The notes beneath the pieces are model-generated. The model was not told the DNA's origin, searched no databases, and saw only the letters and a list, made by a program, of their open reading frames with translations. A DNA stretch of 34,766 nt, from IMG/VR virus record IMGVR_UViG_3300043313_000583, positions 1-34,766 of that record; one strand, given 5' to 3'. The position numbers and the translations under genes were made by a program. This DNA is from a virus. This document shows, one piece after another, positions 5,910 through 33,403 of this stretch; within the stretch, counting starts at the first letter, position 1, and the number at the start of each line of letters is the position of its first letter.

Positions 5910-5937
5910 ACCCTGAGCAACTGAAGGGGGTTCAGCG

Positions 5938-6873
5938 GTGCCATACAACAACCTGGTGGACCGCACGGACGCCGACGTGCCGGACCCGCAAGCCAAGGAG
6001 ATCATCCGGGGCGCGCGCGGCAAGTCGGCGGCCATGTCGCTGTTCCGAAACGTGCCGATGGCACGCGGCAAGGACCGCATCCGTGTGGAGTCGGCGCTGC
6101 CGACGGCGTATTTCGTCAACGGCGACACCGGCCTGAAGCAGACCACCGAGAGCGCCTGGGCGCACAAGGACCTGGTGGCCGAGGAGATCGCGGCCATAGT
6201 GCCGGTGCCCGAGAACGTGATCGACGATGCCGACTTCGACATCTGGGGCGAAGAGCGGCCACAGCTGGAGGAAGCGGTGGGGCGTGCGCTGGACGCGGCC
6301 GTGTTCTTCGGCACGAACAAGCCGGCATCCTGGCCGGCGGCGATCAGCCCGGCCGCGGTCGCGGCGGGCAACACGTCGAACGTCGGGACCAGCACGGCGG
6401 CCCAGGGTGGGTTCGCCGGCGACCTGGCCACGCTGTTCAACCAGGTGGAGGGCGACGGTTACGACGTGAACGCGCTGGTGGCGGCGCGCTCGATCAAGGG
6501 CAGCCTGCGCGCCACGCGTGACACGACCGGCCAGCGGATTCTCGAGATCGACCTGGCGAACAACAAGGTGGACGGTGTAGAGCTGGTGTTCCCGATGCGC
6601 GGGCTGTTCCCGACGGGCTCGGGCACCACGCAGGTGATCGGCGGAGACTTCAGCCAGGGCGTGCTCGGCGTGCGTTCCGACATGAAGTGGAAAATCCTGG
6701 ACCAGGCCGTGATCCAGGACAACACCGGCGTGATCATCTACAACCTGGCGCAGCAGGACATGCTCGCGCTGCGCGTGACGGCCAGGTTCGCGTTCCAGGT
6801 GGCCAACGGGATCAACTTCGACAACGCCGTGGACGCCACGCGGTACCCGTTCGCGGTCTTGCGCACGCCGTAG
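5938..6873 (+). CDS. Major capsid protein, HK97 fold
   Basis: 311 residues from GTG 5938 behind AAGGGGG. The protein forms the icosahedral shell. Features of the Phage_capsid (HK97-like) family include the N-arm region, the VRVESALPTAYFVNGDTGLK strand, WAHKDLVAEEIAAIVPVPEN leading to the spine helix EERPQLEEAVGRALDAAVFFG, and the C-terminal P-domain strand ALRVTARFAFQVANGINFDN. There is no N-terminal delta domain of HK97 length, consistent with the separate scaffold gene upstream. Confidence 0.94.
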   Translation: MPYNNLVDRTDADVPDPQAKEIIRGARGKSAAMSLFRNVPMARGKDRIRVESALPTAYFVNGDTGLKQTTESAWAHKDLVAEEIAAIVPVPENVIDDADFDIWGEERPQLEEAVGRALDAAVFFGTNKPASWPAAISPAAVAAGNTSNVGTSTAAQGGFAGDLATLFNQVEGDGYDVNALVAARSIKGSLRATRDTTGQRILEIDLANNKVDGVELVFPMRGLFPTGSGTTQVIGGDFSQGVLGVRSDMKWKILDQAVIQDNTGVIIYNLAQQDMLALRVTARFAFQVANGINFDNAVDATRYPFAVLRTP

Positions 6874-6928
6874 TTCGGCGCAGGAGTGGGTACAGCAGAG
6901 CTGACACGTTCGACGATCGGAGGGCACC

Positions 6929-7183
6929 ATGGCGACACGGAAGAGCACGGCAGCGAAGAGTGCGAAGGGCGACCAGTCCACGCACGAGTTGCCCGAGGGT
7001 GCCACGACCGAGCCAAGCGGCACGGTGAACCTGTCCGACACCGGACCCGGCGACGCGAGCGCCGCCGATCCGAACCCGGTGCTGGAAAAGGCCACCGAGC
7101 AGGGGTTCCTGGGCGTGGCTCCGGGCAAGGAACACGAGCACGCCGACCTGTCGAAAGGCACGGCCGGCGCGCCGGCGAAGTAG
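6929..7183 (+). CDS. Small acidic Ala/Gly/Thr-rich head-region protein
   Basis: 84 residues with GGAGGGCACC before ATG 6929. Composition is Ala, Gly, Thr, Glu and Lys with little hydrophobic content, so it is probably disordered for much of its length; a short LEKATEQGFLGVAPG segment near residue 52 may be ordered. It sits between the capsid gene and the hairpin that ends the head block. Similar small proteins occur at this place in other actinobacteriophages, but no function is known to me. Confidence 0.62.
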   Translation: MATRKSTAAKSAKGDQSTHELPEGATTEPSGTVNLSDTGPGDASAADPNPVLEKATEQGFLGVAPGKEHEHADLSKGTAGAPAK

Positions 7184-7199
7184 CCGGCCAGCGTGCGAT

Positions 7200-7235
7200 G
7201 ATGGACCCGGTGGGCACGAGCCCGCCGGGTCCATT
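7200..7235 (+). terminator. Strong hairpin, probable terminator after head genes
   Basis: Arms 7201-7210 and 7225-7234 are a perfect 10-bp inverted repeat (ATGGACCCGG / CCGGGTCCAT). Inside it, GGGC 7212-7215 pairs with GCCC 7220-7223 and T7211 can wobble with G7224, giving a 15-bp stem with loop ACGA. G7200-T7235 may add one more wobble. There is no U-run after it, as is common for hairpin terminators in GC-rich actinobacteria. It lies in the gap between the head and connector genes. Confidence 0.72.
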
Positions 7236-7252
7236 CGCATAGGGGGGACCGC

Positions 7253-7705
7253 GTGAACGTGGACAGGCAGGCTGTCGGGGACTACCTGGCGCGAGAGTTC
7301 GACCAGGGCGAGCACGCGCGCGTGGACATGATCGTGCGCCTGGCGTCGGACGCCGTGGCTGGGTTCCTGGGGATCGCGTCCGAGCAGCTCGCGTCCGACC
7401 CGCCACCACCCGCCGAGGGCGTGATCATCGCCGTGGCCGCGCGCGCCGTCGAAAACCCACTGTCGCTCCAGTCCGAAGGTGCGGGCCAGTGGTCCGCGAG
7501 TTGGGCCGAGGGCGGGTTTTCGCTGACGCGATCGGAACGGCGGCAGCTCCAGCCCTACCGTGCTTCCACGGGCGCGGTGGCGTCGGAGATCACGCTGCAA
7601 TCGCCACACCGGCAGAACGTGCCGTGGGTGGGCGCCGGCGTCGGTGGAAACCGCGTTTTCAACGATCAGGAAGGGGAGCGCGTGCCGTGGATCGCCAACA
7701 GCTGA
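7253..7705 (+). CDS. Head-tail adaptor (connector) protein
   Basis: 150 residues from GTG 7253, preceded by AGGGGGGACC. The first 90 residues are helical (LAREFDQGEHARVDMIVRLA, VIIAVAARAVENP) like the HK97 gp6/SPP1 gp15 type of adaptor that binds under the portal; the phrase NPLSLQSEGAGQWSASWAEG followed by LTRSERRQL is common in actinobacteriophage head-tail connectors. It is the first gene of the connector series and ends one base before the next ATG. Confidence 0.78.
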   Translation: MNVDRQAVGDYLAREFDQGEHARVDMIVRLASDAVAGFLGIASEQLASDPPPPAEGVIIAVAARAVENPLSLQSEGAGQWSASWAEGGFSLTRSERRQLQPYRASTGAVASEITLQSPHRQNVPWVGAGVGGNRVFNDQEGERVPWIANS

Positions 7706-7706
7706 C

Positions 7707-8075
7707 ATGGCCGTGCGATTCCCTGACGTGGTGACGATCCGCCGGCAGCGTGACGCCGGCCGCGATCGGCGTGGCAACCCGAAGCGTGAGCAGGCGTACG
7801 CGGTGGAGGTGTTCGGGTTCCTGACCACGGCCAGTTCTCGCGTGCTGCCGCTGGACCCGACGGTGCCGCAGCTGTTCGCGTCCGACACGGTGGTGCTGCT
7901 GCCGGCCGGCACCGACGTGCGCGCCGGCGATCGTGTCGAAGTGGACGGAGAACGGTTCGTGGTCGATGGCGACCCGGTGCGTGTGCGCGCTCCGATCGGC
8001 GCTCGGGTGCGCCACATCGAGGCCAAGCTGCTGACGACCACGGACGCCGTGCTGGCGCCGCAGGCGGGCGCCTGA
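7707..8075 (+). CDS. Head-tail stopper (head closure) protein
   Basis: 122 residues from ATG 7707, immediately after the adaptor stop; the longer frame upstream is a shadow inside the adaptor gene. The sequence is beta-rich (DVVTIRRQRDAG, YAVEVFGFLTTAS, TVVLLPAGTDVRAGDRVEVD, GERFVVDGDPVRVRAP) with the GDRVxVDGxxFxVxGxP pattern found in SPP1 gp16/phage head-closure proteins, which block DNA leakage at the neck. Gene order (adaptor, stopper, gp10-like, terminator) supports it. Confidence 0.76.
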   Translation: MAVRFPDVVTIRRQRDAGRDRRGNPKREQAYAVEVFGFLTTASSRVLPLDPTVPQLFASDTVVLLPAGTDVRAGDRVEVDGERFVVDGDPVRVRAPIGARVRHIEAKLLTTTDAVLAPQAGA

Positions 8076-8398
8076 TGCCGCAGCGCGCGTTCGTGCCGCG
8101 GCCCGGTGCGCTCACCGAGCTGGCGTCCGACGAACCGATGGGCAAGGGGCTGGCGCACATCGCCGGCGCCGGCGTGCCGATCGCGGCCGCGTTCGCTCCC
8201 GTGGACGAGGGCGACTACCAGCGGTCGATCCATCCCATGGTGGAGCTGACGGCGCTGGGGTTCGTGGGCTACATCGTGGCTGACGACTACAAGGCCGTGA
8301 TGATCGAGCACGGGACCGGGCCGCCAGGTCCGACGCCGGCGCACCAGCCACTGCGCCGCGCGGCCGAGGCGCTCGGGCTCCAGCTGAGGGGCGAGTAG
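8075..8398 (+). CDS. HK97 gp10-like neck/tail-completion protein
   Basis: 107 residues, ATG 8075 overlapping the previous stop in TGATG. The C-terminal half carries VADDYKAVMIEHGTGPPGPTP followed by HQPLRRAAEAL, the typical E-x-GT-x-PA.P.LR.A end of HK97 gp10-like proteins that act at the neck or in tail completion. Short for the family (usually 110-150), but the diagnostic C-terminus is complete. Confidence 0.74.
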   Translation: MPQRAFVPRPGALTELASDEPMGKGLAHIAGAGVPIAAAFAPVDEGDYQRSIHPMVELTALGFVGYIVADDYKAVMIEHGTGPPGPTPAHQPLRRAAEALGLQLRGE

Positions 8399-18073: not shown

Positions 18074-18859
18074 GTGCCGTATCAGATCAGGCGCCGCGAC
18101 AAGCTGCCGTTCGTGCACGATCAGCGGCTGGACCTGGACGAGATCAAGGCCGCGATCCACGACCGATGGGACCACGACGGCGGGCCGGGCCAGGTCCGGC
18201 TGCCGGACGAAGACTGGTCCGCGGACTACCTGGGCCGCGTGGAGCTGACGGACGAAGTGGTGCGCCGTGCGCACGCGCTCGTGCCCAAGGCCGTGCGGTT
18301 CCGGCTGAACGCCAAGAGCACCGACAAGGATGGCCGGCCGGACGGGCCGGTGTACCTGGTGCGGCGCGTGCCGGCGCTCACGATCGGGCCGGCAGAATCC
18401 ACGCCGGCGTGGCCGGGCTACCCGATGGACAACTGGTCGCCGCCGATGCAGCGCGTGGTGCGTGTCGCGTACGGGATCGACCACGACCTGCGATGCAACG
18501 GCGGCGCGTACACGCGGCCGGTGAACCCGCCGGACTGGTGGCATCCGGGCATGGGGCTGCCGGCGGGTTCCACGTGGTCGCAGCACGCGCGGTTCAAGGC
18601 GCTGGCCTGTCGGGGCAACGCTGCGGACCTGGTGTTCTACACGGCCGGCGGCGACGTGGACATGACGCAGCTGGACCGGCACGCGGCGCGCATGGTCGCG
18701 ATCGCGCGTGCCGGCGAGCTGCCCGAGTTGGGGCGCCTGATCATCCGCGACCACAGCTACCGCAAGTCCACCGGCTACGCGGCCGAGTCCTACGGCGGCG
18801 TGTACCACTACCACGAGCACACCGAGTCGGTGTACCAGTCGGGTCCGGTGTGCAGCTAG
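18074..18859 (+). CDS. Unknown protein, possible M15-like zinc peptidase (endolysin candidate)
   Basis: 261 residues from GTG 18074 behind AAGGGGGAGACA. No family is certain. The C-terminal half contains S169-Q-H171, then GNAADL with D185, then GVYHYHEH with H245/H247/H249: the order His, Asp, His-x-His resembles the metal ligands of M15 (DD-carboxypeptidase/VanX-type) peptidases, but His to Asp spacing is 14 rather than the usual 7. Position after the tail genes and before the small membrane proteins fits an endolysin. Residues 1-110 are a charged region of unknown role. An alternative is a tail-associated protein. No signal peptide. Confidence 0.6.
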   Translation: MPYQIRRRDKLPFVHDQRLDLDEIKAAIHDRWDHDGGPGQVRLPDEDWSADYLGRVELTDEVVRRAHALVPKAVRFRLNAKSTDKDGRPDGPVYLVRRVPALTIGPAESTPAWPGYPMDNWSPPMQRVVRVAYGIDHDLRCNGGAYTRPVNPPDWWHPGMGLPAGSTWSQHARFKALACRGNAADLVFYTAGGDVDMTQLDRHAARMVAIARAGELPELGRLIIRDHSYRKSTGYAAESYGGVYHYHEHTESVYQSGPVCS

Positions 18860-19153
18860 GTGGACACCGGCAGCTGGCTCGACCTGCTGGTGGGTCCGGG
18901 CGGGCTGCTGGTCGCGCTGCTCGTGGTGATCGTCACGGGCATGCGCCGACGGTGGGTGTTCGGGTGGCAGTACGATGCAGCACTGAAGGACTGCGAAGAG
19001 TGGAAGTCGCGCGCGCTGCGCGCGATGGGGGTGGCCGAACGTGCAACCGACACGACGGTGGCCGTGGTGAAACAGCAGGTGCTGCCACCACTGCGCGCGG
19101 CGTCGGACGACGAGCTGCTGCGGCAGGCGCGGGATCGTGGGCTGATCGAGTGA
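18860..19153 (+). CDS. Small membrane protein, holin-like
   Basis: 97 residues from GTG 18860 immediately after the previous stop. One membrane segment at residues about 9-27 (LLVGPGGLLVALLVVIVTGM) is followed by RRR and a charged helical cytoplasmic tail ending in ELLRQARDRGLIE. Its place behind the lysin candidate and before other membrane proteins suggests holin or holin-partner function; that is inference. It ends in GTGA overlapping the next gene. Confidence 0.72.
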   Translation: MDTGSWLDLLVGPGGLLVALLVVIVTGMRRRWVFGWQYDAALKDCEEWKSRALRAMGVAERATDTTVAVVKQQVLPPLRAASDDELLRQARDRGLIE

Positions 19154-19320
19154 AGCTGCCAGGGTGGTCGCGCCGGCACGAGCATGAGCGCGACCTGTCC
19201 GAGCGTGTGGACGACCAGGCGCGCGACCTGCGCGCGCTCGACCAGCGGCTGGACCGTGTGGAGCGCCAGGTGAAGATCAGCCGGCAACTCGCGCTGCGCC
19301 GGCTGGAGCGGGGCAGCTGA
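19150..19320 (+). CDS. Small charged coiled-coil protein
   Basis: 56 residues from GTG 19150, which overlaps the preceding stop (GTGA). The protein is almost entirely charged with a heptad-like pattern (LSERVDDQARDLRALDQRLD, then RVERQVKISRQLALRRLE). Its stop overlaps the next ATG at 19320. The tight double coupling between two membrane-protein genes supports a real gene; it could regulate or scaffold the neighbouring membrane proteins. Function unknown. Confidence 0.68.
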   Translation: MKLPGWSRRHEHERDLSERVDDQARDLRALDQRLDRVERQVKISRQLALRRLERGS

Positions 19321-19712
19321 TGAGCCGCACGGTGGACCTGCTGGAGCTGGTGTGGACCGTGATCGCTGTCGTCGGGTTCGTGTCGTCGATCGGCAACGTG
19401 TGGGCGGCGACCGGCGACCGGCGCCTGGCGCTGATGGCGAACACCAACGGGTACGGGGCGGCCATGCTCGGGTACACGCTCGCGCAGGAAGTCCTGCGCA
19501 TGATCGCCGAAGTGGGGTTCGTGGCCGCCGGCGCGTGGGCCATGACGCAGCCAACGCCGGACCCTGCGCCGTCCACATCGCCGGTGGCGATCGTCGCGCT
19601 CGTGGGCGCCAACCTGGTGATCAGCGCCAACAGCGTTACGACCGGGTACACGCGGCGTCGGCTCGCGAAGATCGCGCAGGACCAGTTCGAGGACACGAAG
19701 GGGGAATCGTGA
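19320..19712 (+). CDS. Multi-pass membrane protein, holin candidate
   Basis: 130 residues from ATG 19320 overlapping the previous stop. Hydrophobic stretches at about 10-29 (VWTVIAVVGFVSSIGNVWA), 57-77 (EVLRMIAEVGFVAAGAWAM) and 87-104 (PVAIVALVGANLVISANSV) predict three membrane spans, with a charged C-terminus (RRRLAKIAQDQFEDTKGES). Small size, several spans and place in the lysis block make it a good holin candidate. Confidence 0.74.
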   Translation: MSRTVDLLELVWTVIAVVGFVSSIGNVWAATGDRRLALMANTNGYGAAMLGYTLAQEVLRMIAEVGFVAAGAWAMTQPTPDPAPSTSPVAIVALVGANLVISANSVTTGYTRRRLAKIAQDQFEDTKGES

Positions 19713-19972
19713 TGGACAACGACACGACGACGACAGGTCCGGTGGATCGCACCGGCGCGTCACCGGCCGCGAGGCCGACGGAGTGGATCGCTGCCGTGGC
19801 TGGGCTCGTGACGGCAGTGGTGGCGTACCTGAACGACCGTGACGTGGCCGCGCTCGTGGCGGTGGCCACGGGTTCGCTGCCCACGATCGTCACGGCAGTG
19901 ACGGCGTGGTACGACCGCCGGCACGGTGGCGCTGTGACTGCGACGCCGGCGGGTGAGGATTCGCTGGGTTAG
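19712..19972 (+). CDS. Small membrane protein, second holin candidate
   Basis: 86 residues from ATG 19712 (GTG 19709 in frame is an alternative) with AAGGGGGAATCG before it. The N-terminal 25 residues are polar and Thr-rich; hydrophobic segments at about 25-42 (WIAAVAGLVTAVVAYL) and 47-65 (VAALVAVATGSLPTIVTAV) end in WYDRRHGG and a polar tail. Two short spans with a charged end is a common holin layout. Last gene before the hairpin at 19984-20034. Confidence 0.72.
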   Translation: MDNDTTTTGPVDRTGASPAARPTEWIAAVAGLVTAVVAYLNDRDVAALVAVATGSLPTIVTAVTAWYDRRHGGAVTATPAGEDSLG

Positions 19973-22699: not shown

Positions 22700-22839
22700 C
22701 CACGCGAGGGTGGCTGTACGCGCTCGCGAAACTGCTGGGCGACCTGTCGGCCGTTCAGCATGGAACGGTGGGCAAGCGCATCGCGCGCCGCGCTGCCGGC
22801 CGTATCACGGGGCGCGCGCTGGGAGGGCTGTTCAGGTGA
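22696..22839 (+). CDS. Small conserved basic phage protein
   Basis: 47 residues from ATG 22696, overlapping the previous stop in ATGA. The sequence (MTTRGWLYALAKLLGDLSAV, then GKRIARRAAGRITGRALGGL) is a short amphipathic basic protein of a type I associate with many actinobacteriophages. Function is not known. The downstream lipoprotein GTG overlaps its stop. Confidence 0.74.
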   Translation: MTTRGWLYALAKLLGDLSAVQHGTVGKRIARRAAGRITGRALGGLFR

Positions 22840-23129
22840 AAGCACTAGTGGCGGTGACGCTGGCGCTGGTCCTATCGGGCTGCGCCACGAGCACCACGAC
22901 GACGACGGAAAAGCCGGCGACGACGCAGGACAGCACGTCGCCGGACGAAGCGATGGCGGCCGCGGTCGTGGCCGGGCTGTCCGATCGGCAGGCGCGATCG
23001 TTCTGCCACGCGTTCTATGCCATGGGCAGCTACCACCAGGCGTTCGTAGCGTTCCGGTCGGGGTTCACCACCGGCAGCGATCACGTCGCGCACCTGGTGT
23101 TCGACGGACTGGTGGCGCGCTGTGGCTAA
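22836..23129 (+). CDS. Lipoprotein, phage moron candidate
   Basis: 97 residues from GTG 22836 (GTGA overlap). The first 16 residues (VKALVAVTLALVLSGC) are a lipoprotein signal with lipobox LSGC, C16 to be lipidated. A Thr/Lys-rich linker follows (TSTTTTTEKPATTQDSTSPD), then a small globular domain with two Cys (SFCHAFYAMGSYHQAFVAF; LVARCG). The mature protein would face outward on the cell membrane. Phage-encoded lipoproteins are known in other systems to block superinfection; that role here is inference. Confidence 0.85.
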   Translation: MKALVAVTLALVLSGCATSTTTTTEKPATTQDSTSPDEAMAAAVVAGLSDRQARSFCHAFYAMGSYHQAFVAFRSGFTTGSDHVAHLVFDGLVARCG

Positions 23130-24520: not shown

Positions 24521-25159
24521 ATGAAACACCTAGCAGCGGCCGCGCTCGCGGTCCTGTTCGTCCTGGGCGGCGCCAGCGCGGCGTGGGCCAGTGACGGCAA
24601 CACGATCCCGTGGACGGGGCACGGCGACGACAACCTGCCGTGCGAAGCGGGCGGGCATTGGGTGCTCGCGCCGGCGTTCGGCATCGACAGCGCCACGCTC
24701 ACCGTGGACGGCACCGACTACGTGATGGTGCAGAACGGTGAGGGGAGCTGGGCTGCCGATTCCGTCGGTCCGATCGACGACGGCGTGGACGCGTACGTGA
24801 CGTACACGGGCGCCGGCGACGAACGCGACCAGCTCCAGCTGTCCCACTGCACGGAGGGCAGCCCGACGCCGACACCGACGCCGACGGAGACACCGAGCCC
24901 GACACCGACCGAGAGTCCGACGCCGACGAACACGCCGACGAAGCCCACGGTGCCCGGTGGATCGACGGTGCCACCACAGGACTGTGGCGGCAAGATCAAC
25001 GCGGCGTGCTCGCACAGCACGAGCCTGATCCCGCCGGCGTCGGGCCGGCGCACGGCGTTCACCGGCGGCGTGCCGGCGTGGATGCTGTGGACGATCGGTG
25101 GCGGCCTGGTGATCGGTACAGGCGCGCTGTGGTGGACACGGCGCAGGATCACGGACTGA
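24521..25159 (+). CDS. Exported surface protein with stalk and sorting-like signal
   Basis: 212 residues, CGAAGGGGGAGAC before ATG 24521. A signal peptide (residues 1-23, cleavage after AWA) leads to a globular domain of about 90 residues with two Cys (C41, C110). A Thr/Pro stalk at 114-145 (SPTPTPTPTETP repeated with variation) and a second Cys pair (C155, C163) follow. The end has TAFTGG (178-183), a membrane span (about 185-205) and RRR: the architecture of a sortase substrate, with the pentapeptide close to the LAxTG signals of some actinobacteria. It may be host-cell-wall anchored; membrane anchoring alone is the alternative. Confidence 0.86.
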   Translation: MKHLAAAALAVLFVLGGASAAWASDGNTIPWTGHGDDNLPCEAGGHWVLAPAFGIDSATLTVDGTDYVMVQNGEGSWAADSVGPIDDGVDAYVTYTGAGDERDQLQLSHCTEGSPTPTPTPTETPSPTPTESPTPTNTPTKPTVPGGSTVPPQDCGGKINAACSHSTSLIPPASGRRTAFTGGVPAWMLWTIGGGLVIGTGALWWTRRRITD

Positions 25160-25999: not shown

Positions 26000-26380
26000 A
26001 TGGACACCAGCACGATCAGCGTGGGCGACCGCGTGAGCTACGAGGACATGGCCAACCCACGGCGCCGCGGCATGATCGTGGCCACGGGCGACGCGTTCGG
26101 CCAGTACACGATCGCGTGGGACGACGACACCACGAGCACATCGGACTGCCGGCAGGCCGGATGGCGCCTGGAGCAGTCGGGCATCGGTGACGTGATCCGG
26201 GCAGCCAAGTGGCGCCAGGCGCGCGAGCTGGACGCGGTGGAGGCCGCGCTGCCGGCGCTCGTGGCGATCCAAGGCCGCTACCGCGGCACGCGGCACGCCA
26301 ACAAAGTGAGCACGCAGGCGCGTCGGGCCGCCGAGGCGATCGAAACCCTGCTGTCACTCACGCAGAACGTGGAGCGATGA
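26000..26380 (+). CDS. SH3/KOW-like small-domain protein
   Basis: 126 residues from ATG 26000 behind CAGGGAAGGGAGCAGGAC; ATG 25967 in frame is the alternative leaderless start, adding 11 residues whose sequence parallels the upstream extension at 22289. VGDRVSYEDMANPRRRGMIV, then ATGDAFGQYTIAWDDD and GWRLE look like a small five-strand barrel. The C-terminus is helical (LDAVEAALPALVAIQGRYRG; RAAEAIETLLSLTQ). It may bind nucleic acid. Ends in ATGA overlap with the next gene. Confidence 0.78.
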   Translation: MDTSTISVGDRVSYEDMANPRRRGMIVATGDAFGQYTIAWDDDTTSTSDCRQAGWRLEQSGIGDVIRAAKWRQARELDAVEAALPALVAIQGRYRGTRHANKVSTQARRAAEAIETLLSLTQNVER

Positions 26381-27036
26381 TGGAGCTGCTACTGACGCAG
26401 GCGCTGCCGACCACCGAGCGGGTGCGCGCCGAGCACGGCGCGAACATCGGCCGGCTGCTGACGCCGCGCCACTACCCGAGCGCGGCCGAGACTGTGGCCG
26501 CCGGCATCACGTGGGCCGCCGACAACGATGGCTGGGGCGGTGTGGACGCCGACGCGTTCCGGCGCATGCTCGTGACGCTGGCACCACACGCCAGCCACTG
26601 CCGGTTCGTGACGGTGCCCGACGTGGTGGCCGATGGCGCCGCCACGATCGCCAGCTGGCGCATGTGGGCCGACGAAGTGCGCGGACACGGGTTCCCACCG
26701 GCGCTCGTGCTCCAGGACGGCATGCAGCTCGTGGCCGACGGGATCGCCGCTGACGGCGAGCTGGTGCCGTGGACCGAGATCGGGGCGGTGTTCGTCGGTG
26801 GATCGACGGAGTGGAAGCTGGGCACCGACGCCGCAGCGGTCGCGCGCGAGGCGCACCGACGCGGCCTGTGGGTGCACGTGGGCCGCGTGAACAGCGTGCG
26901 CCGGCTCCAGCACGCGGCCGCGATCGACGCCGACAGCTGCGACGGCACGGGCTGGGTGCGGTTCAAGCGTTCGATGCTGCCGCTGTTCTCGCGCTGGGAT
27001 CAGGCCGGGCAGCCGGCGCAGCTGGTGGCCGCGTGA
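26377..27036 (+). CDS. DpdA/TGT-like 7-deazaguanine transglycosylase-family protein
   Basis: 219 residues from ATG 26377 (ATG 26380 also possible). The pattern matches the TIM-barrel of the queuine-tRNA ribosyltransferase/DpdA superfamily, which swaps guanine for a deazaguanine base in nucleic acid: TVPDVVADGA (D82 as general base), VLQDG (112-115), VFVGGSTEWKLG (138-149) corresponding to the GG substrate loop, WVHVGRVNS (165-173) and DADSCDGTGW (184-193). The zinc-binding C-terminal of tRNA enzymes is absent, as in short phage DpdA-like proteins that act on DNA. No queC/D/E or folE is in the window. Confidence 0.72.
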   Translation: MMELLLTQALPTTERVRAEHGANIGRLLTPRHYPSAAETVAAGITWAADNDGWGGVDADAFRRMLVTLAPHASHCRFVTVPDVVADGAATIASWRMWADEVRGHGFPPALVLQDGMQLVADGIAADGELVPWTEIGAVFVGGSTEWKLGTDAAAVAREAHRRGLWVHVGRVNSVRRLQHAAAIDADSCDGTGWVRFKRSMLPLFSRWDQAGQPAQLVAA

Positions 27037-27655: not shown

Positions 27656-27843
27656 TGGCGCGCACCGTGACGAAGAGCACCGTGGCCGTGGCTTATCCGC
27701 TGGTGCCGGCGAACACGCCGGACTTCGAGCAGTGGGCACGCGCGTGGTGTGAGCGCAAGGGCTGGGCGCTGGTGGAGGTCGTGTCGCAGCGGCGCATGTC
27801 CGACGCCTGGTACCAGCTCACGGTGCGGTGGACGAAGCCATGA
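27655..27843 (+). CDS. Small hypothetical protein
   Basis: 62 residues from ATG 27655, overlapping the previous stop in TGATG; its own stop overlaps the methyltransferase start in ATGA. Beta-alpha-beta with several Trp (DFEQWARAWCERKGWALVEV; AWYQLTVRWTKP), about the size of a ferredoxin-like unit. Coupling implies co-expression with the methyltransferase. Function unknown. Confidence 0.66.
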   Translation: MARTVTKSTVAVAYPLVPANTPDFEQWARAWCERKGWALVEVVSQRRMSDAWYQLTVRWTKP

Positions 27844-28787
27844 ACCTGCTGCCGGCGGCGCCGGCGTACGGGCCGTGGATCAGACCGACCAGCCGGCTGC
27901 GGGTCCTGGACCTGTTCGCCGGCCTGGGCGGCTGGTCCGCGGCGTTCAGGCTGCGCGGCCACGAGGTCGTACGCGTGGACCTGGGGGACACGTTCGACGT
28001 GGAGCTGCACGCCGACGTGTCGAAGCTGAACGTGGACGACGTGCGAAACGCGTTCGACGATCGCCGGCTGCCGCACGTGGTGCTCGCGTCGCCACCGTGC
28101 GAAACCTTCAGCACGATGCGCATGGGGTCCAACTGGACCGAGCAGGGCACGCCACGCCGACCCGAGGCCGCGGCCGCGCTGGAGCTGGTGAACGACACGG
28201 TGCGCCTGATCGAAGAGCTGAACCCGGCGTGCTGGGTCCTGGAGAATCCGCGCGCGAGGCTCCGCACGCTCGTGTCGCTGCTGATGGCGTACGAACGGCG
28301 CACCGTGACCTACTGCCGGCTGGGCGAACGCTGGCGCAAGCCCACGGACCTGTGGGGCGGGTTCCTGCCATCCCTGGAGCTGCCCGAGACATGCCGCGCG
28401 AACCCGGACAGGTTCGGCACCTTCACGGACGCCACCGGCGTGACGTGGACGTGCGACCCGTTCGGCAAGCCGTGCCACGTGTACGCGCCGCGCGGGTCCA
28501 CCACGTCGATACAGGGCGACAGCGCCACGCGCGCGTACGACGGCGATCGGAAGCTGACGCGACAGGGCGCCGAGCAGCTCGCGGCGAACATGTCCGAGCG
28601 GCCCGATCATGTGGAGCTCGCGGAGTACGCGACCGCCGGCGCCGACGCCGGTGGCAACTGGCACAAGCCGACGCTGGCCGCGCTCCGCGCGGTCGTTCCG
28701 TACCGGCTGTCCGAGCTGGTGTGTGAGGCCGCCGAGCGGGACGTGCCCGCCGGCCGGCGATGTGGAGGGAGGGCAACGCTGTGGTGA
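27840..28787 (+). CDS. C5-cytosine DNA methyltransferase
   Basis: 315 residues from ATG 27840 (GTG 27828 is an in-frame alternative). The enzyme would transfer a methyl group from S-adenosylmethionine to cytosine C5. Motif I is DLFAGLGGWSAAF (24-36), motif IV is ASPPCETFS with catalytic C87, and motif VI is LENPRARLR (134-142), with Pro where many have Val. GTTTSI-like and QGAEQLAANMSERP segments follow in the target-recognition and C-terminal part. The QRR motif is not obvious, as in many short phage versions. No restriction partner is next to it, so protection of phage DNA is more likely than a restriction system. Recognition sequence unknown. Confidence 0.87.
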   Translation: MNLLPAAPAYGPWIRPTSRLRVLDLFAGLGGWSAAFRLRGHEVVRVDLGDTFDVELHADVSKLNVDDVRNAFDDRRLPHVVLASPPCETFSTMRMGSNWTEQGTPRRPEAAAALELVNDTVRLIEELNPACWVLENPRARLRTLVSLLMAYERRTVTYCRLGERWRKPTDLWGGFLPSLELPETCRANPDRFGTFTDATGVTWTCDPFGKPCHVYAPRGSTTSIQGDSATRAYDGDRKLTRQGAEQLAANMSERPDHVELAEYATAGADAGGNWHKPTLAALRAVVPYRLSELVCEAAERDVPAGRRCGGRATLW

Positions 28788-30425: not shown

Positions 30426-30642
30426 GCAGGCCGTGGCCTACCTGAAGCGCAAGGTGCAGGTGTACCCGCAGGCGCGCACGAAGCGCGCGAGCGACGGCAA
30501 GGTGTGGGACTGGCGCCGGCTGGCGCCGAACGGTCGGAAGGTGGCCACGAGCGGCACGCAGGGGTACAGCACCCGCGCCGGCGCGTGGGCGGCCGCGGTC
30601 GTGGAGAATCCTGGCCTGGCGATCGAAGAGGCCGAAGCATGA
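30391..30642 (+). CDS. Small DUF1508-like protein
   Basis: 83 residues from ATG 30391 with GGAAAGGGGAGACAGAC upstream. DGKVWDWRRLAPNGRKVATS followed by GTQGYSTRAGAWAAAVVE fits the short DUF1508/YegP-type unit (W.WRL...NG..va.s...Y.s..ga..ai), a small alpha/beta fold of unknown action. It overlaps the next ATG in ATGA. Confidence 0.72.
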   Translation: MAQYPLLDVDSEQAVAYLKRKVQVYPQARTKRASDGKVWDWRRLAPNGRKVATSGTQGYSTRAGAWAAAVVENPGLAIEEAEA

Positions 30643-30932
30643 GGCGCCTGGTCGCTGGGTTCGTGCTCGGCGTCCTGCTGTCGATGGCGCTGCCGGCCAC
30701 AGCAGCGGACAAGGCGGCGCCGTGCTACACGGTGCGCTACCGCCGGCACGTCGTCGCGGTCCTGGGCACGTCCGAAGAGCTGCTGGGCTCGGCGCACGTC
30801 GCGTTCCTGGAGCTGCGCGCCGGCCACACGTACAAGGCGCGCGTGATCCTGCACGACCTGAACGCGTACCTGCCCACCTACTGGCAGCGCGAGGGCGCCG
30901 TGATCCGGCGATCGGTCGGGTGTGGGCTGTGA
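30639..30932 (+). CDS. Exported small protein with signal peptide
   Basis: 97 residues from ATG 30639. A signal peptide (residues 1-23, cleavage after ATAA) precedes a small mature domain with two Cys (C29 and C95), which could form a disulfide outside the cell. No lipobox. Strand-rich (YTVRYRRHVVAVLGTSEELL; YKARVILHDLNAYL). It overlaps its neighbours on both sides, showing it is part of the operon. Function unknown. Confidence 0.78.
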   Translation: MRRLVAGFVLGVLLSMALPATAADKAAPCYTVRYRRHVVAVLGTSEELLGSAHVAFLELRAGHTYKARVILHDLNAYLPTYWQREGAVIRRSVGCGL

Positions 30933-31392: not shown

Positions 31393-31426
31393 GACCCTAG
31401 CCCGTAGCGTGGCGCCCGTCGGCGCC
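31393..31426 (+). promoter_or_regulatory. Intergenic GACCCTAG with GGCGCC hairpin
   Basis: GACCCTAG (31393-31400), the word also present inverted at 20054-20061, is followed by TAGCGT (31405-31410), a possible -10 box, and by GGCGCC-CGTC-GGCGCC (31411-31426), a six-bp stem with a four-base loop. It could form the start of the exported-protein operon or end the previous one. No -35 box is evident. Confidence 0.38.
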
Positions 31427-31453
31427 GCGTGTGACTGCCAGGGGGTGAAAACC

Positions 31454-31942
31454 ATGGCGCAACACTTCACCAGGGCGGCGCTCGGCGCCGTCGTTCTGAT
31501 CGCAGCATTAGGCCAGGCGCTCGTGAGCACGCCGGCGCCGGCAGCTACCCGACACGTCAACCGATGGGCGGAGTGTCGATACCAGTACGCGAACGGCGCC
31601 GCCGGCTGGACGCCGTACGAAGTCAGCAGGACGATCGACTGTGCAGCGGCACACTTCGGGGTGAGCGCGTCCACGGCGCACATGGTGGCCGATCGGGAGT
31701 CTCACCACGGCCAGTTCAGCACGAACCCGTACAGCTACGCGTGCGGCGTGTTCCAGCACCTGCCGCGCTACTTCAGCGGCAGGCTGGCGGCCGTGCCCGA
31801 CTGGCTCGGGCCGTTCGGCCATCCGTGGTCCGACCCGACGGTGGTGCACGGTGCCAGGTCCTACTGCTACAACGCACGCGACAACGTGCTGGCCGCGCTG
31901 TGGATGGTCCACACCAGCGGCTGGTGGGCATGGGGAGGCTGA
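31454..31942 (+). CDS. Exported lysozyme/transglycosylase-like protein
   Basis: 162 residues from ATG 31454, preceded by CCAGGGGGTGAAAACC; GTG 31409 in frame would mask the signal peptide. Residues 1-31 are a signal peptide ending in TPAPA-A. The mature domain has ADRESHHGQFSTNPYS, with E82 in the place of the catalytic Glu of SLT/goose-lysozyme-type enzymes, ACGVFQHLPRYFSGR matching the G-[VI]-FQ motif, and NVLAALWMVHTSGWWAW matching the A..w....GW..W end. Four Cys (41, 63, 97, 138) may form two disulfides. It should act on peptidoglycan from outside the membrane, as a lysin or in another wall-remodelling role. Confidence 0.8.
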   Translation: MAQHFTRAALGAVVLIAALGQALVSTPAPAATRHVNRWAECRYQYANGAAGWTPYEVSRTIDCAAAHFGVSASTAHMVADRESHHGQFSTNPYSYACGVFQHLPRYFSGRLAAVPDWLGPFGHPWSDPTVVHGARSYCYNARDNVLAALWMVHTSGWWAWGG

Positions 31943-31943
31943 C

Positions 31944-32786
31944 ATGCGGAGACTGATCGCAACGACAGCAGCGGCGCTCGTGCTCGCGAGCTCCGCGATC
32001 GCGGCCGAGGTCGCATCGGCGCCGGTTGCGCTCGCGGCGTCGCCAGGATGGATCACGACGTGCCCACAGTCGGCGCCGGACCACGTGGCCGACCCGATCG
32101 GTGGGGCGATGCACGTGCACAGGTTCGTGGGAGCCCACGAGCTGCTGGACACGAGCACGCCGGCCACCATGCGGGCATCGGGCACCAGCTGCCTGACACG
32201 GGGCGACAGCTCGGGCTCGTGGGTGCCACAGGTGCTGGAGGACGGGCAGCCCGTCGCGACCGGACCCAAGGGCACGCTGTTCTACTACCGGCGCAAGGGC
32301 GCGCCGGCCGGCGTGCAGGTCCAGCCGTTCCCTGATGGGCTGAAGTTCCTGGTGGGGAACGCGCACGCCACCAGCCAGGCCGACAACCCGGCGATCGGCG
32401 CCGGCCACATCACGTGGAAGTGTGGGCCGGGCTCGGGCACGGAGACACCGGCGCCGCCGGCACAGTGCAGCTCGGGCGTGCTCGTGGCGGTGTTCATCCT
32501 GCCCAACTGCGGCACGGGTGCGCTGGACAGCGCCGACCACATGAGCCACCTGGCGTACCCGGTGGGCTCCAGCTGTCCGGCGTCGCATCCGGTGGTGTTC
32601 CCGCGTATCCAAGCGTTCTGGCGCTTCCAGGTGGGCACCGATCCGATCAACCTGAGCCTGGCCAGTGGGCCGTACTACACGATGCACATGGACTACCTGA
32701 ACGCGTGGGACCAGGCGGCGCTCCAGTCACTGATCGCCAGGTGTATAAACGGCATGGTGGACTGCGGCACCGATCCGGCGCCGTAG
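31944..32786 (+). CDS. Exported DUF1996-like protein
   Basis: 280 residues from ATG 31944, one base after the preceding stop. A signal peptide is present (residues 1 to about 25-32). The mature part carries the DUF1996 pattern: GGAMHVHRFVGA (54-64), the first Cys (C83), SGSWVPQVLEDG (90-101), LFYYRR, QPFPDGLKFLVGNA (127-140), WKC (158-160), ILPNCGTG, SHLAYP, CPASHPVVFP (211-220) and the final MHMDYLNAWDQAALQSLIAR with C267. DUF1996 domains occur in secreted proteins of fungi and actinomycetes; their reaction is not established to my knowledge. Conserved His (57, 59, 201, 215, 248) and Trp suggest a metal- or sugar-binding site. Confidence 0.83.
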   Translation: MRRLIATTAAALVLASSAIAAEVASAPVALAASPGWITTCPQSAPDHVADPIGGAMHVHRFVGAHELLDTSTPATMRASGTSCLTRGDSSGSWVPQVLEDGQPVATGPKGTLFYYRRKGAPAGVQVQPFPDGLKFLVGNAHATSQADNPAIGAGHITWKCGPGSGTETPAPPAQCSSGVLVAVFILPNCGTGALDSADHMSHLAYPVGSSCPASHPVVFPRIQAFWRFQVGTDPINLSLASGPYYTMHMDYLNAWDQAALQSLIARCINGMVDCGTDPAP

Positions 32787-32800
32787 CGTGTCGGTGGGGC

Positions 32801-32820
32801 GCTCGAGAATCGAGCCCTAG
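32801..32820 (+). promoter_or_regulatory. GCTCGA-GAA-TCGAGC palindrome with GAGCCCTAG
   Basis: Perfect six-base arms 32801-32806 and 32810-32815 around GAA, overlapping GAGCCCTAG (32812-32820). CTCGAGAATC (32803-32812) is shared with 25881-25890. It lies in the 48-base gap before the gene at 32835, so it could be an operator for that gene or an internal promoter site. Confidence 0.5.
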
Positions 32821-32834
32821 CGGAAGGGGGAGCG

Positions 32835-33335
32835 ATGCGGAGGATCATGGTAGGGCTCGGGGTGGCGGCGCTGCTGCTGCTGGGAGCCATCCAGGCGGTG
32901 CCGGCGCAGGCGCAGCTGATAACCGACACCGTGTGCAAGACGTTCCACAGTTTCAACGGCAACGCCAAGGTGAAGATATGCGCCGAGGCGGTGCAGCACA
33001 CCGACACGGACAGGACGCTGGCACAGACCGACGTTAGCCCGGTATCGGGCTACCAGCGGCCCAACCTTGTCACCGTGACCGTCCGGCAGTGGTCGTCCGC
33101 GACCACCGGCAACTGGTGCAGCGGGCGTCTACCGGACTGCAACGGCAGCGGCAACGTCCACGCTGATTTCACGTTCCTGCCGAACGGGACGAACACGGAG
33201 GCGCTCACGCCGAGCGAGCACCACTGCCTGATCCATGCGGAGGTCGTGGCGTATATCGCGTGGCCTGGTGGCGGCACCAGCTCACCGATCGTGAACAGCC
33301 ACGACATGTCCACCGTGCAGTCGGGGTGCGTCTAG
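32835..33335 (+). CDS. Exported Cys-containing hypothetical protein
   Basis: 166 residues, GGAAGGGGGAGCG before ATG 32835. Signal peptide residues 1-26 (cleavage after AQA). The mature protein has six Cys (VCKTFHSF, KICAEAV, NWCSGRLPDC, HHCLIHAEV, SGCV) that could form three disulfides, and is rich in strands (LVTVTVRQWSSATTGNWCSG; NVHADFTFLPNGTN). It is the third exported protein in a row and the last before the 16-bp hairpin. No family recognised. Confidence 0.8.
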   Translation: MRRIMVGLGVAALLLLGAIQAVPAQAQLITDTVCKTFHSFNGNAKVKICAEAVQHTDTDRTLAQTDVSPVSGYQRPNLVTVTVRQWSSATTGNWCSGRLPDCNGSGNVHADFTFLPNGTNTEALTPSEHHCLIHAEVVAYIAWPGGGTSSPIVNSHDMSTVQSGCV

Positions 33336-33348
33336 GCCGCGCAAGGGT

Positions 33349-33403
33349 TCGGCGCCGGCTGGTCGCGACGGACATACGGGCCGTGAGGACCAGCCGGCGC
33401 CGA
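33349..33403 (+). terminator. Perfect 16-bp hairpin after the exported-protein cassette
   Basis: TCGGCGCCGGCTGGTC (33349-33364) is the exact reverse complement of GACCAGCCGGCGCCGA (33388-33403), with a 23-base loop. Very stable, 13 bases after the stop of the last exported-protein gene, and just before the next ribosome-binding site. No U-run, but the position and stem fit termination. It shares CCGGCTGGTCGCG with the hairpin at 19984. Confidence 0.78.

Follow-up and report, generated by a model that had tools for sequence, protein, structure and literature searches.

Exported lysozyme-type and DUF1996 proteins encoded side by side in a phage genome, and their possible part in attack on the host envelope

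What would a phage gain from three consecutive genes for exported proteins? The question is raised by three open reading frames (ORFs), ORF1 to ORF3, of IMG/VR virus record IMGVR_UViG_3300043313_000583, positions 1 to 34,766 of which form the window analysed here (34,766 bases, GC 69.8%). A preliminary description, made from the letters of the DNA, had called their products lysozyme-like, DUF1996-like and Cys-rich, placed them in a cassette of their own and suggested that the trio acts on the envelope from outside. We verified the coordinates of the three ORFs, which are consecutive on the + strand (Table 1), and followed each product through family, structure and neighbourhood searches. With about even confidence, we read ORF1 and ORF2, probably together with ORF3, as a Sec-exported set that assists lysis by attacking the host envelope from its outer side.

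Export was claimed for all three products, and each ORF indeed has a signal-peptide-like start at the place described, as judged by a home-made rule that asks for a basic n-region followed by a hydrophobic core and a site of the A-x-A type. Across the window, this rule picks out 11 of 60 ORFs, among them several that encode plain membrane proteins; four convincing starts fall within 30.6–33.4 kb. Cysteines in the mature parts are even in number throughout: 4 in ORF1, 8 in ORF2, 6 in ORF3 and 2 in a further small ORF at 30639.

ORF1 is a probably exported and presumably catalytic member of the lytic transglycosylase/lysozyme superfamily, an assignment based on relatives that pass the SLT cut-off, a conserved Glu region and the structural matches of its model. 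Its product carries a signal-peptide-like stretch (residues 1–30), a catalytic-type Glu82 and a GVFQ motif (residues 98–101). Alone, ORF1 stayed under the Pfam cut-off for SLT and gave a weak transglycosylase match among PHROGs (E = 0.013). Relatives in L139, L141 and L144 (loci carry our L numbers, genomes G numbers) scored 22.8–26.4 bits against the SLT cut-off of 21.3, and homology in fetched loci reached tblastn E values as low as 9e-12. Across 13 aligned proteins, Glu82 is invariant, as are Ser83, Gly98, Gln101, Tyr106, Arg142 and Asn144; the Glu at the superfamily catalytic position and the G-[VIL]-[FYW]-Q motif are thus both present and invariant. Searched against PDB, the alignment profile found lysozyme C chains weakly (best E = 0.0076), and the match places the Glu region on the active-site region of lysozyme C. 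An AlphaFold2 model of moderate confidence (mean predicted local distance difference test (pLDDT) 62, core 78–88) had only lytic transglycosylases and lysozymes as its top PDB structural matches, the best being phiKZ gp144 (Z 10.4 over 118 residues, root-mean-square deviation 3.9, identity 14%), which bears out the lysozyme-like call. A codon-usage gene finder made for this study moves the ORF1 start to 31682; alignment speaks for the start at 31454, since the relatives in L156, L158 and L161 begin with a signal-peptide-like stretch at an equal distance.

The DUF1996 call for ORF2 proved secure: the protein matches PF09362 at E = 1.1e-29 and 104.6 bits, far above the gathering threshold of 27, over positions 9–237 of the 237-position profile. 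Twenty columns are invariant over 44 DUF1996 proteins, among them D50, H57, H59, W93, P95, D195, D198, H199, S201, H202, H248 and D250, which in ORF2 make up the motifs H57xH59, D198-H199-x-S201-H202 and H248xD250. The published signature of the domain reads D-x4-P, H-x-H, D-x-S-x-YW-x-P, CP and H-x-D-x3-GW (PMC4738358). ORF2 retains H57xH59, D88-x-S90, W93-x-P95, C211-P212 and H248xD250-x4-W; it departs from the signature in losing the P of D-x4-P within a five-residue deletion, in having Ser92 for the Tyr of YW and in reading AW for GW, the last of which it shares with most bacterial members. Its AlphaFold2 model is confident (pLDDT 88, predicted template modelling score 0.83) and found no convincing structural match (Foldseek against PDB, best E = 0.54; VIA-align, one chain at Z 2.1; BFVD, best E = 0.13, with none at 0.001 or better); the DUF1996 alignment likewise drew chance matches only among PDB sequences. 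Lack of a match for a predicted model does not establish a new fold. In fungi, DUF1996 often accompanies CBM or WSC domains, a possible link to polysaccharide degradation (PMC7679414). Two Streptomyces plasmids (L003 and L004) encode a chromosome-type DUF1996 beside discoidin-domain genes and arabinofuranosidase or GH3 genes, neighbours that give a hint of polysaccharide chemistry for the domain.

Is DUF1996 foreign to phages? The preliminary description held that it is not a usual phage gene, which agrees with PHROGs, where the window protein matched no family, and with the open literature, where a search leaving most subscription journals uncovered found nothing to link DUF1996 to phages, lysis genes or exported SLT proteins. 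The sequence data say otherwise: two alignment scans found the domain on 53 other IMG/VR contigs (42 and 11; L161 and L165 are the same contig), the first scan yielding 41 loci in 25 clusters at 85% identity. One phage record in GenBank, MW202423, likewise encodes DUF1996, under a hypothetical annotation. Single-sequence searches of IMG/VR with ORF1, ORF2 and ORF3 returned nothing, and alignment searches alone succeeded. Salmonella DUF1996 records in the phage collection were left unused, being half-megabase bacterial contigs or short unannotated records. Signal-peptide-like starts were found for 22 of 24 representative phage DUF1996 genes versus 34 among the 324 remaining genes at these loci; the start of one of the two exceptions, L017, seems truncated. 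The DUF1996 proteins of L013, L016, L018, L021, L024 and L032 have long N-terminal extensions, often starting W/Y-L-x-x-G...C.

In these phages, DUF1996 tends to lie near lysis genes. When the records were searched for the Pfam endolysin families GH24, GH19 and GH108, eight clusters matched, and DUF1996 was within 2 kb of the endolysin in 6 of them, where random placement predicts 1.05 (p = 1.4e-4; the test is small and the contigs are fragments). In a second member of one of the far clusters, L044, which falls outside the count, a GH24 gene is 970 bases from DUF1996. PHROG holins directly precede DUF1996 in L016 and L036, directly follow it in L021 and come two genes after it in L032. Two more cases, from the second scan, lie outside the statistic. 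L163 encodes a GH108 endolysin, one small gene and then DUF1996; in L167 (5827–7551), a fusion of DUF1996 with a calcineurin-like phosphoesterase domain is immediately followed by an Amidase_2 endolysin and two small ORFs for membrane proteins. CAP-domain genes, of the cysteine-rich secretory protein family, also occur near phage DUF1996 (L166, 6677–7081; L162, 5956–6453).

The pairing with an exported SLT protein recurs as well. A profile search of IMG/VR with ORF1 relatives found six contigs. In L161, an exported SLT gene (about 5926–6375) directly precedes an exported DUF1996 gene (6507–7220), the order seen in the window, and the pair sits beside a convergent-strand membrane protein and an NlpC/P60 endolysin (again outside the statistic). 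L166 lines up four genes, for an exported DUF1996, a CAP-domain protein and an SLT-domain protein that are both exported too, and a membrane protein; the DUF1996 and SLT genes are 3.4 kb apart in L169, and both are present, far apart, in L168. Four records (L156–L159) have an exported SLT gene beside an opposite-strand VanY-type endolysin and membrane proteins, and no DUF1996 was found in them. L160 was left out as a phage case for ORF1, since no convincing phage genes flank it. The preliminary description had tied its idea of a system to the lysozyme and DUF1996 folds and to co-occurrence in phages; ORF1 has the lysozyme-type fold, ORF2 the DUF1996 domain, and L161, L166 and L169 each bring homologues of the two together. 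In the DUF1996 tree, SLT-partnered members occupy separate places (the window clade, L161, and L166 with L169), which makes repeated origins of the pairing probable. The recurring pairs and the closeness to lysis genes, in dozens of other phages, suggest that phage attack on the cell envelope has DUF1996 as a component overlooked so far.

We next consider lysis in the window phage itself, which appears to have an ordinary endolysin/holin module at 18.1–20.0 kb. The candidate endolysin at 18074 shows the S-x-H...G-x-A-x-D...H-x-H pattern of M15/VanY peptidases; it had no match in Pfam, PHROG, NCBIfam or PDB sequences and no relatives were found, so the endolysin call is a reading of the sequence only. 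Beyond it, 19320–19712 is related to a 138-aa protein beside the VanY-type endolysin of L156 (E = 9e-7), and 19150–19320 to a 56-aa coiled coil from the adjoining gene there (E = 0.004). L156 has, at 6650–8244, a lysis-type module of VanY-type endolysin, two membrane proteins and this coiled coil. No transmembrane ORF lies directly beside 31454–33335; the holin candidates are at 18.9–20.0 kb instead. If the motif-based endolysin call is right, ORF1 is not the main endolysin, and we set aside ORF1 as the sole one. The export-dependent lysis route proposed earlier consequently fits as an addition, since the window also has this likely module.

From the domain identities, the export-type N termini and the neighbourhoods, we propose an activity, a substrate and a timing for the set. 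ORF1 would cut the glycan strands of peptidoglycan after export, with no need of a holin. ORF2, probably disulfide-bonded and equipped with its conserved His/Asp set, may bind or cleave a second surface polymer, perhaps a polysaccharide or wall-linked glycan that shields peptidoglycan or holds the envelope together; ORF3 would be an accessory. Lysis itself would be triggered by the module at 18.1–20.0 kb; the part of the exported set would be to weaken the envelope before that, or to remove material that the endolysin cannot cut. The suggestion that the trio acts from outside is thus well supported for ORF1, and ORF2 and ORF3 join it by extrapolation. More broadly, and tentatively, DUF1996 could be a widespread type of envelope enzyme that phages export and that has so far gone unannotated, its fold absent from solved structures. 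By cutting a secondary polymer of the wall or surface it would serve as a second, dedicated step in lysis, repeatedly in company with an exported lytic transglycosylase.

Several points weigh against a role in lysis. PDB structure searches matched DUF1996 to no solved fold and the activity of the domain is not known; in Beauveria, DUF1996 proteins are vacuolar and influence how stress is tolerated (PMC4738358), findings that do not suggest hydrolysis. Lysis regions also gather lysogenic-conversion genes, so position is no proof of a lysis role, and the closest phage relatives of ORF2 (L008 and L162–L164) have no ORF1 relative. ORF3 is not conserved. Finally, the window set is placed among small ORFs at a distance of 12 kb from the likely lysis module, unlike its relatives.

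That last arrangement would suit the main rival reading, a less likely one, in which the proteins remodel the cell surface early in infection or in lysogens, trimming or masking wall polymers or receptors and so bringing about superinfection exclusion or lysogenic conversion. An exported ORF at 24521–25159 with a sortase-signal-like tail would fit a programme of surface display, and a lipoprotein-like ORF at 22836 has weak, N-terminus-driven matches to two families, the Cor exclusion proteins (E = 0.0014) and the Rz-like spanins (E = 0.004). In some phages (L019 and L042), moreover, DUF1996 is not near a recognised lysis gene. In most testable phages, however, it clusters with endolysins and holins, and the scanned window ORFs, a subset of all, included no recognisable integrase or repressor gene. 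Among the options offered originally (lysis, exclusion of other phages by wall modification, attack on surface polymers), help in lysis fits the neighbourhoods of the relatives best, and we keep phage exclusion as its rival.

The genes might instead be cargo from a host chromosome, passenger wall-maintenance or polysaccharide-degrading genes with no dedicated phage role. Both families are indeed native to one Actinomycetota order: ORF1 matches were found in 20 of 296 Actinomycetota genomes, with 15 of the 27 genomes of this order having one and 16 of the 27 having DUF1996, which places both families in the likely hosts. As the relatives of ORF1 are mainly in this order, the sequence comparison makes an actinomycete the likely host of the window phage. 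In the three genomes compared (G056, G151 and G279), however, the two genes are on different contigs, so the pair seems to have been assembled in phages, and it is found again in unrelated ones. Nor does the window DUF1996 group with the order's own: its closest relatives are those of phages L162, L008, L163 and L164 (52–58% identity) and one protein of a Chloroflexota metagenome-assembled genome, a clade with support of 100/99. We hence regard a cargo origin as unlikely. That the pair is a virion-associated tail lysozyme and depolymerase acting on entry, as the position of DUF1996 after tail-fibre genes in several phages (L010, L012 and L022) might suggest, is very improbable given cleavable-type signal peptides and even Cys numbers, which indicate export and oxidation and not cytoplasmic virion assembly, and the distance of the window genes from its tail genes.

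Returning to the exported set as a possible aid to lysis, we asked how far its boundaries reach. ORF3 had no match in family-library scans and no phage relatives; in the 296 Actinomycetota genomes it drew weak matches only (best E = 2e-4). With no convincing relatives of ORF3, the three genes do not form a conserved unit. In L158 (5339–5815) and L164 (4625–5140), the exported SLT or DUF1996 genes have other, unrelated exported proteins as direct neighbours, much like ORF3 in the window. The notion of a separate cassette holds in that the trio is adjacent and weakens in that a fourth exported ORF, at 30639, is nearby and further exported or lipoprotein ORFs start at 22836 and 24521. The fourth ORF lies two ORFs upstream of ORF1, had no match in family-library scans and may belong to the same group.

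The hairpin reported after the trio is real: its arms (33349–33364 and 33388–33403) pair perfectly, the 91-nt stretch around it folds with z = -6.2 relative to shuffles, and its stem is the longest perfect one among 22 inverted repeats listed for the window. It has no T-run and is therefore no textbook intrinsic terminator. The motif described in the gap before ORF1 did not survive: the 10-mer CCGTAGCGTG at 31402 has an exact second copy at 32781, and its one-mismatch count is at chance level (6 found, 5.9 expected), so we rejected it as a regulatory motif. A riboswitch or other known RNA in this gap was also rejected, with zero Rfam matches over threshold.

Elsewhere, the window encodes a terminase large subunit (TerL), a portal, a major head protein, a tape measure protein and a tail protein; the phage is therefore a tailed one with a siphovirus-like gene set. 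Its TerL is less than 60% identical to each of the related TerL proteins of named phages. The ORF at 24521–25159 encodes an exported protein of 212 aa with a Thr/Pro/Ser-rich stalk, for which family scans gave low-complexity matches only; its C terminus (TAFTG, a hydrophobic stretch and RRR) resembles a sortase sorting signal (compare LAxTG), by which the product could be displayed on the host wall. The small lipoprotein-like ORF at 22836–23129 has an LSGC lipobox. Two possible DNA-modification genes encode a relative of DpdA-like tRNA-guanine transglycosylase (26380–27036) and a C5 cytosine methyltransferase domain (27828–28787).

Table 1 Features of the window discussed in the text (Cys, cysteine residues; AF2, AlphaFold2 model).
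Feature	Position	Strand	Basis or remark
Tape measure protein	10.3-12.0 kb		
Tail protein	13.9-15.0 kb		
Likely cytoplasmic endolysin	18074..18859	+	M15/VanY-like pattern by eye
Coiled-coil and membrane ORFs, holin candidates of likely lysis module	19150..19972	+	L156 matches
Small exported protein, 97 aa, 2 Cys	30639..30932	+	signal-peptide-like start
ORF1, 162 aa, exported SLT-type lytic transglycosylase/lysozyme-like	31454..31942	+	profiles, alignment, model
ORF2, 280 aa, exported DUF1996 protein, 8 Cys	31944..32786	+	Pfam, alignment, AF2
ORF3, 166 aa, exported Cys-rich protein, 6 Cys, signal-peptide-like 1-26	32835..33335	+	
Hairpin, perfect 16-bp stem, without T-run	33349..33403	+	directly 3' of the three ORFs

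The recurrence of DUF1996 in phage lysis regions, with export signals, turns a domain of unknown function into a testable idea, namely that it breaks or binds an envelope polymer, and phages offer small single-domain versions with which to test it. If the idea is right, lysis by phages of high-GC bacteria and of proteobacteria would gain an exported arm that annotation libraries have missed.

How does such a set compare with known systems? Two-enzyme lysis is familiar from mycobacteriophages, in which LysA is joined by LysB, a second enzyme that removes a non-peptidoglycan layer of the envelope. LysA has been described for mycobacteriophage Ms6 (PMC3111421). The window pair would share this logic of a second enzyme against a non-peptidoglycan layer; unlike LysB, to which the scans run gave no family match, DUF1996 carries a signal peptide, and by Pfam the two are unrelated. 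Sec-exported, holin-independent endolysins comprise a signal-peptide type, such as Lys44 of Oenococcus phage fOg44, and the signal-arrest-release (SAR) endolysins (PMC7143992, PMC7312051). Like these, ORF1 would be a lysozyme-type muralytic protein with an export signal of its own, a putative one recognised by the heuristic rule and by eye, so that passage through a holin would be unneeded; it differs from them in its DUF1996 partner, its cleavable-type A-x-A signal and its position apart from the likely endolysin/holin module. In model fold, ORF1 resembles phiKZ gp144 and other SLT-family phage transglycosylases, although it is short, has a signal peptide and shares little sequence with gp144. 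ORF2, in turn, has the H-x-H, D-x-S...W-x-P, CP and H-x-D elements of fungal and actinomycete DUF1996 proteins (PMC4738358, PMC7679414), whereas it is phage-encoded, its loop after DPI is shortened and the YW Tyr is replaced by Ser; the neighbours of phage DUF1996 are lysis or other phage genes and not glycosidases. Exported phage muralytic enzymes were thus already known; what the open literature searched did not contain is the repeated occurrence of DUF1996 in phages in association with lysis genes and an exported SLT protein.

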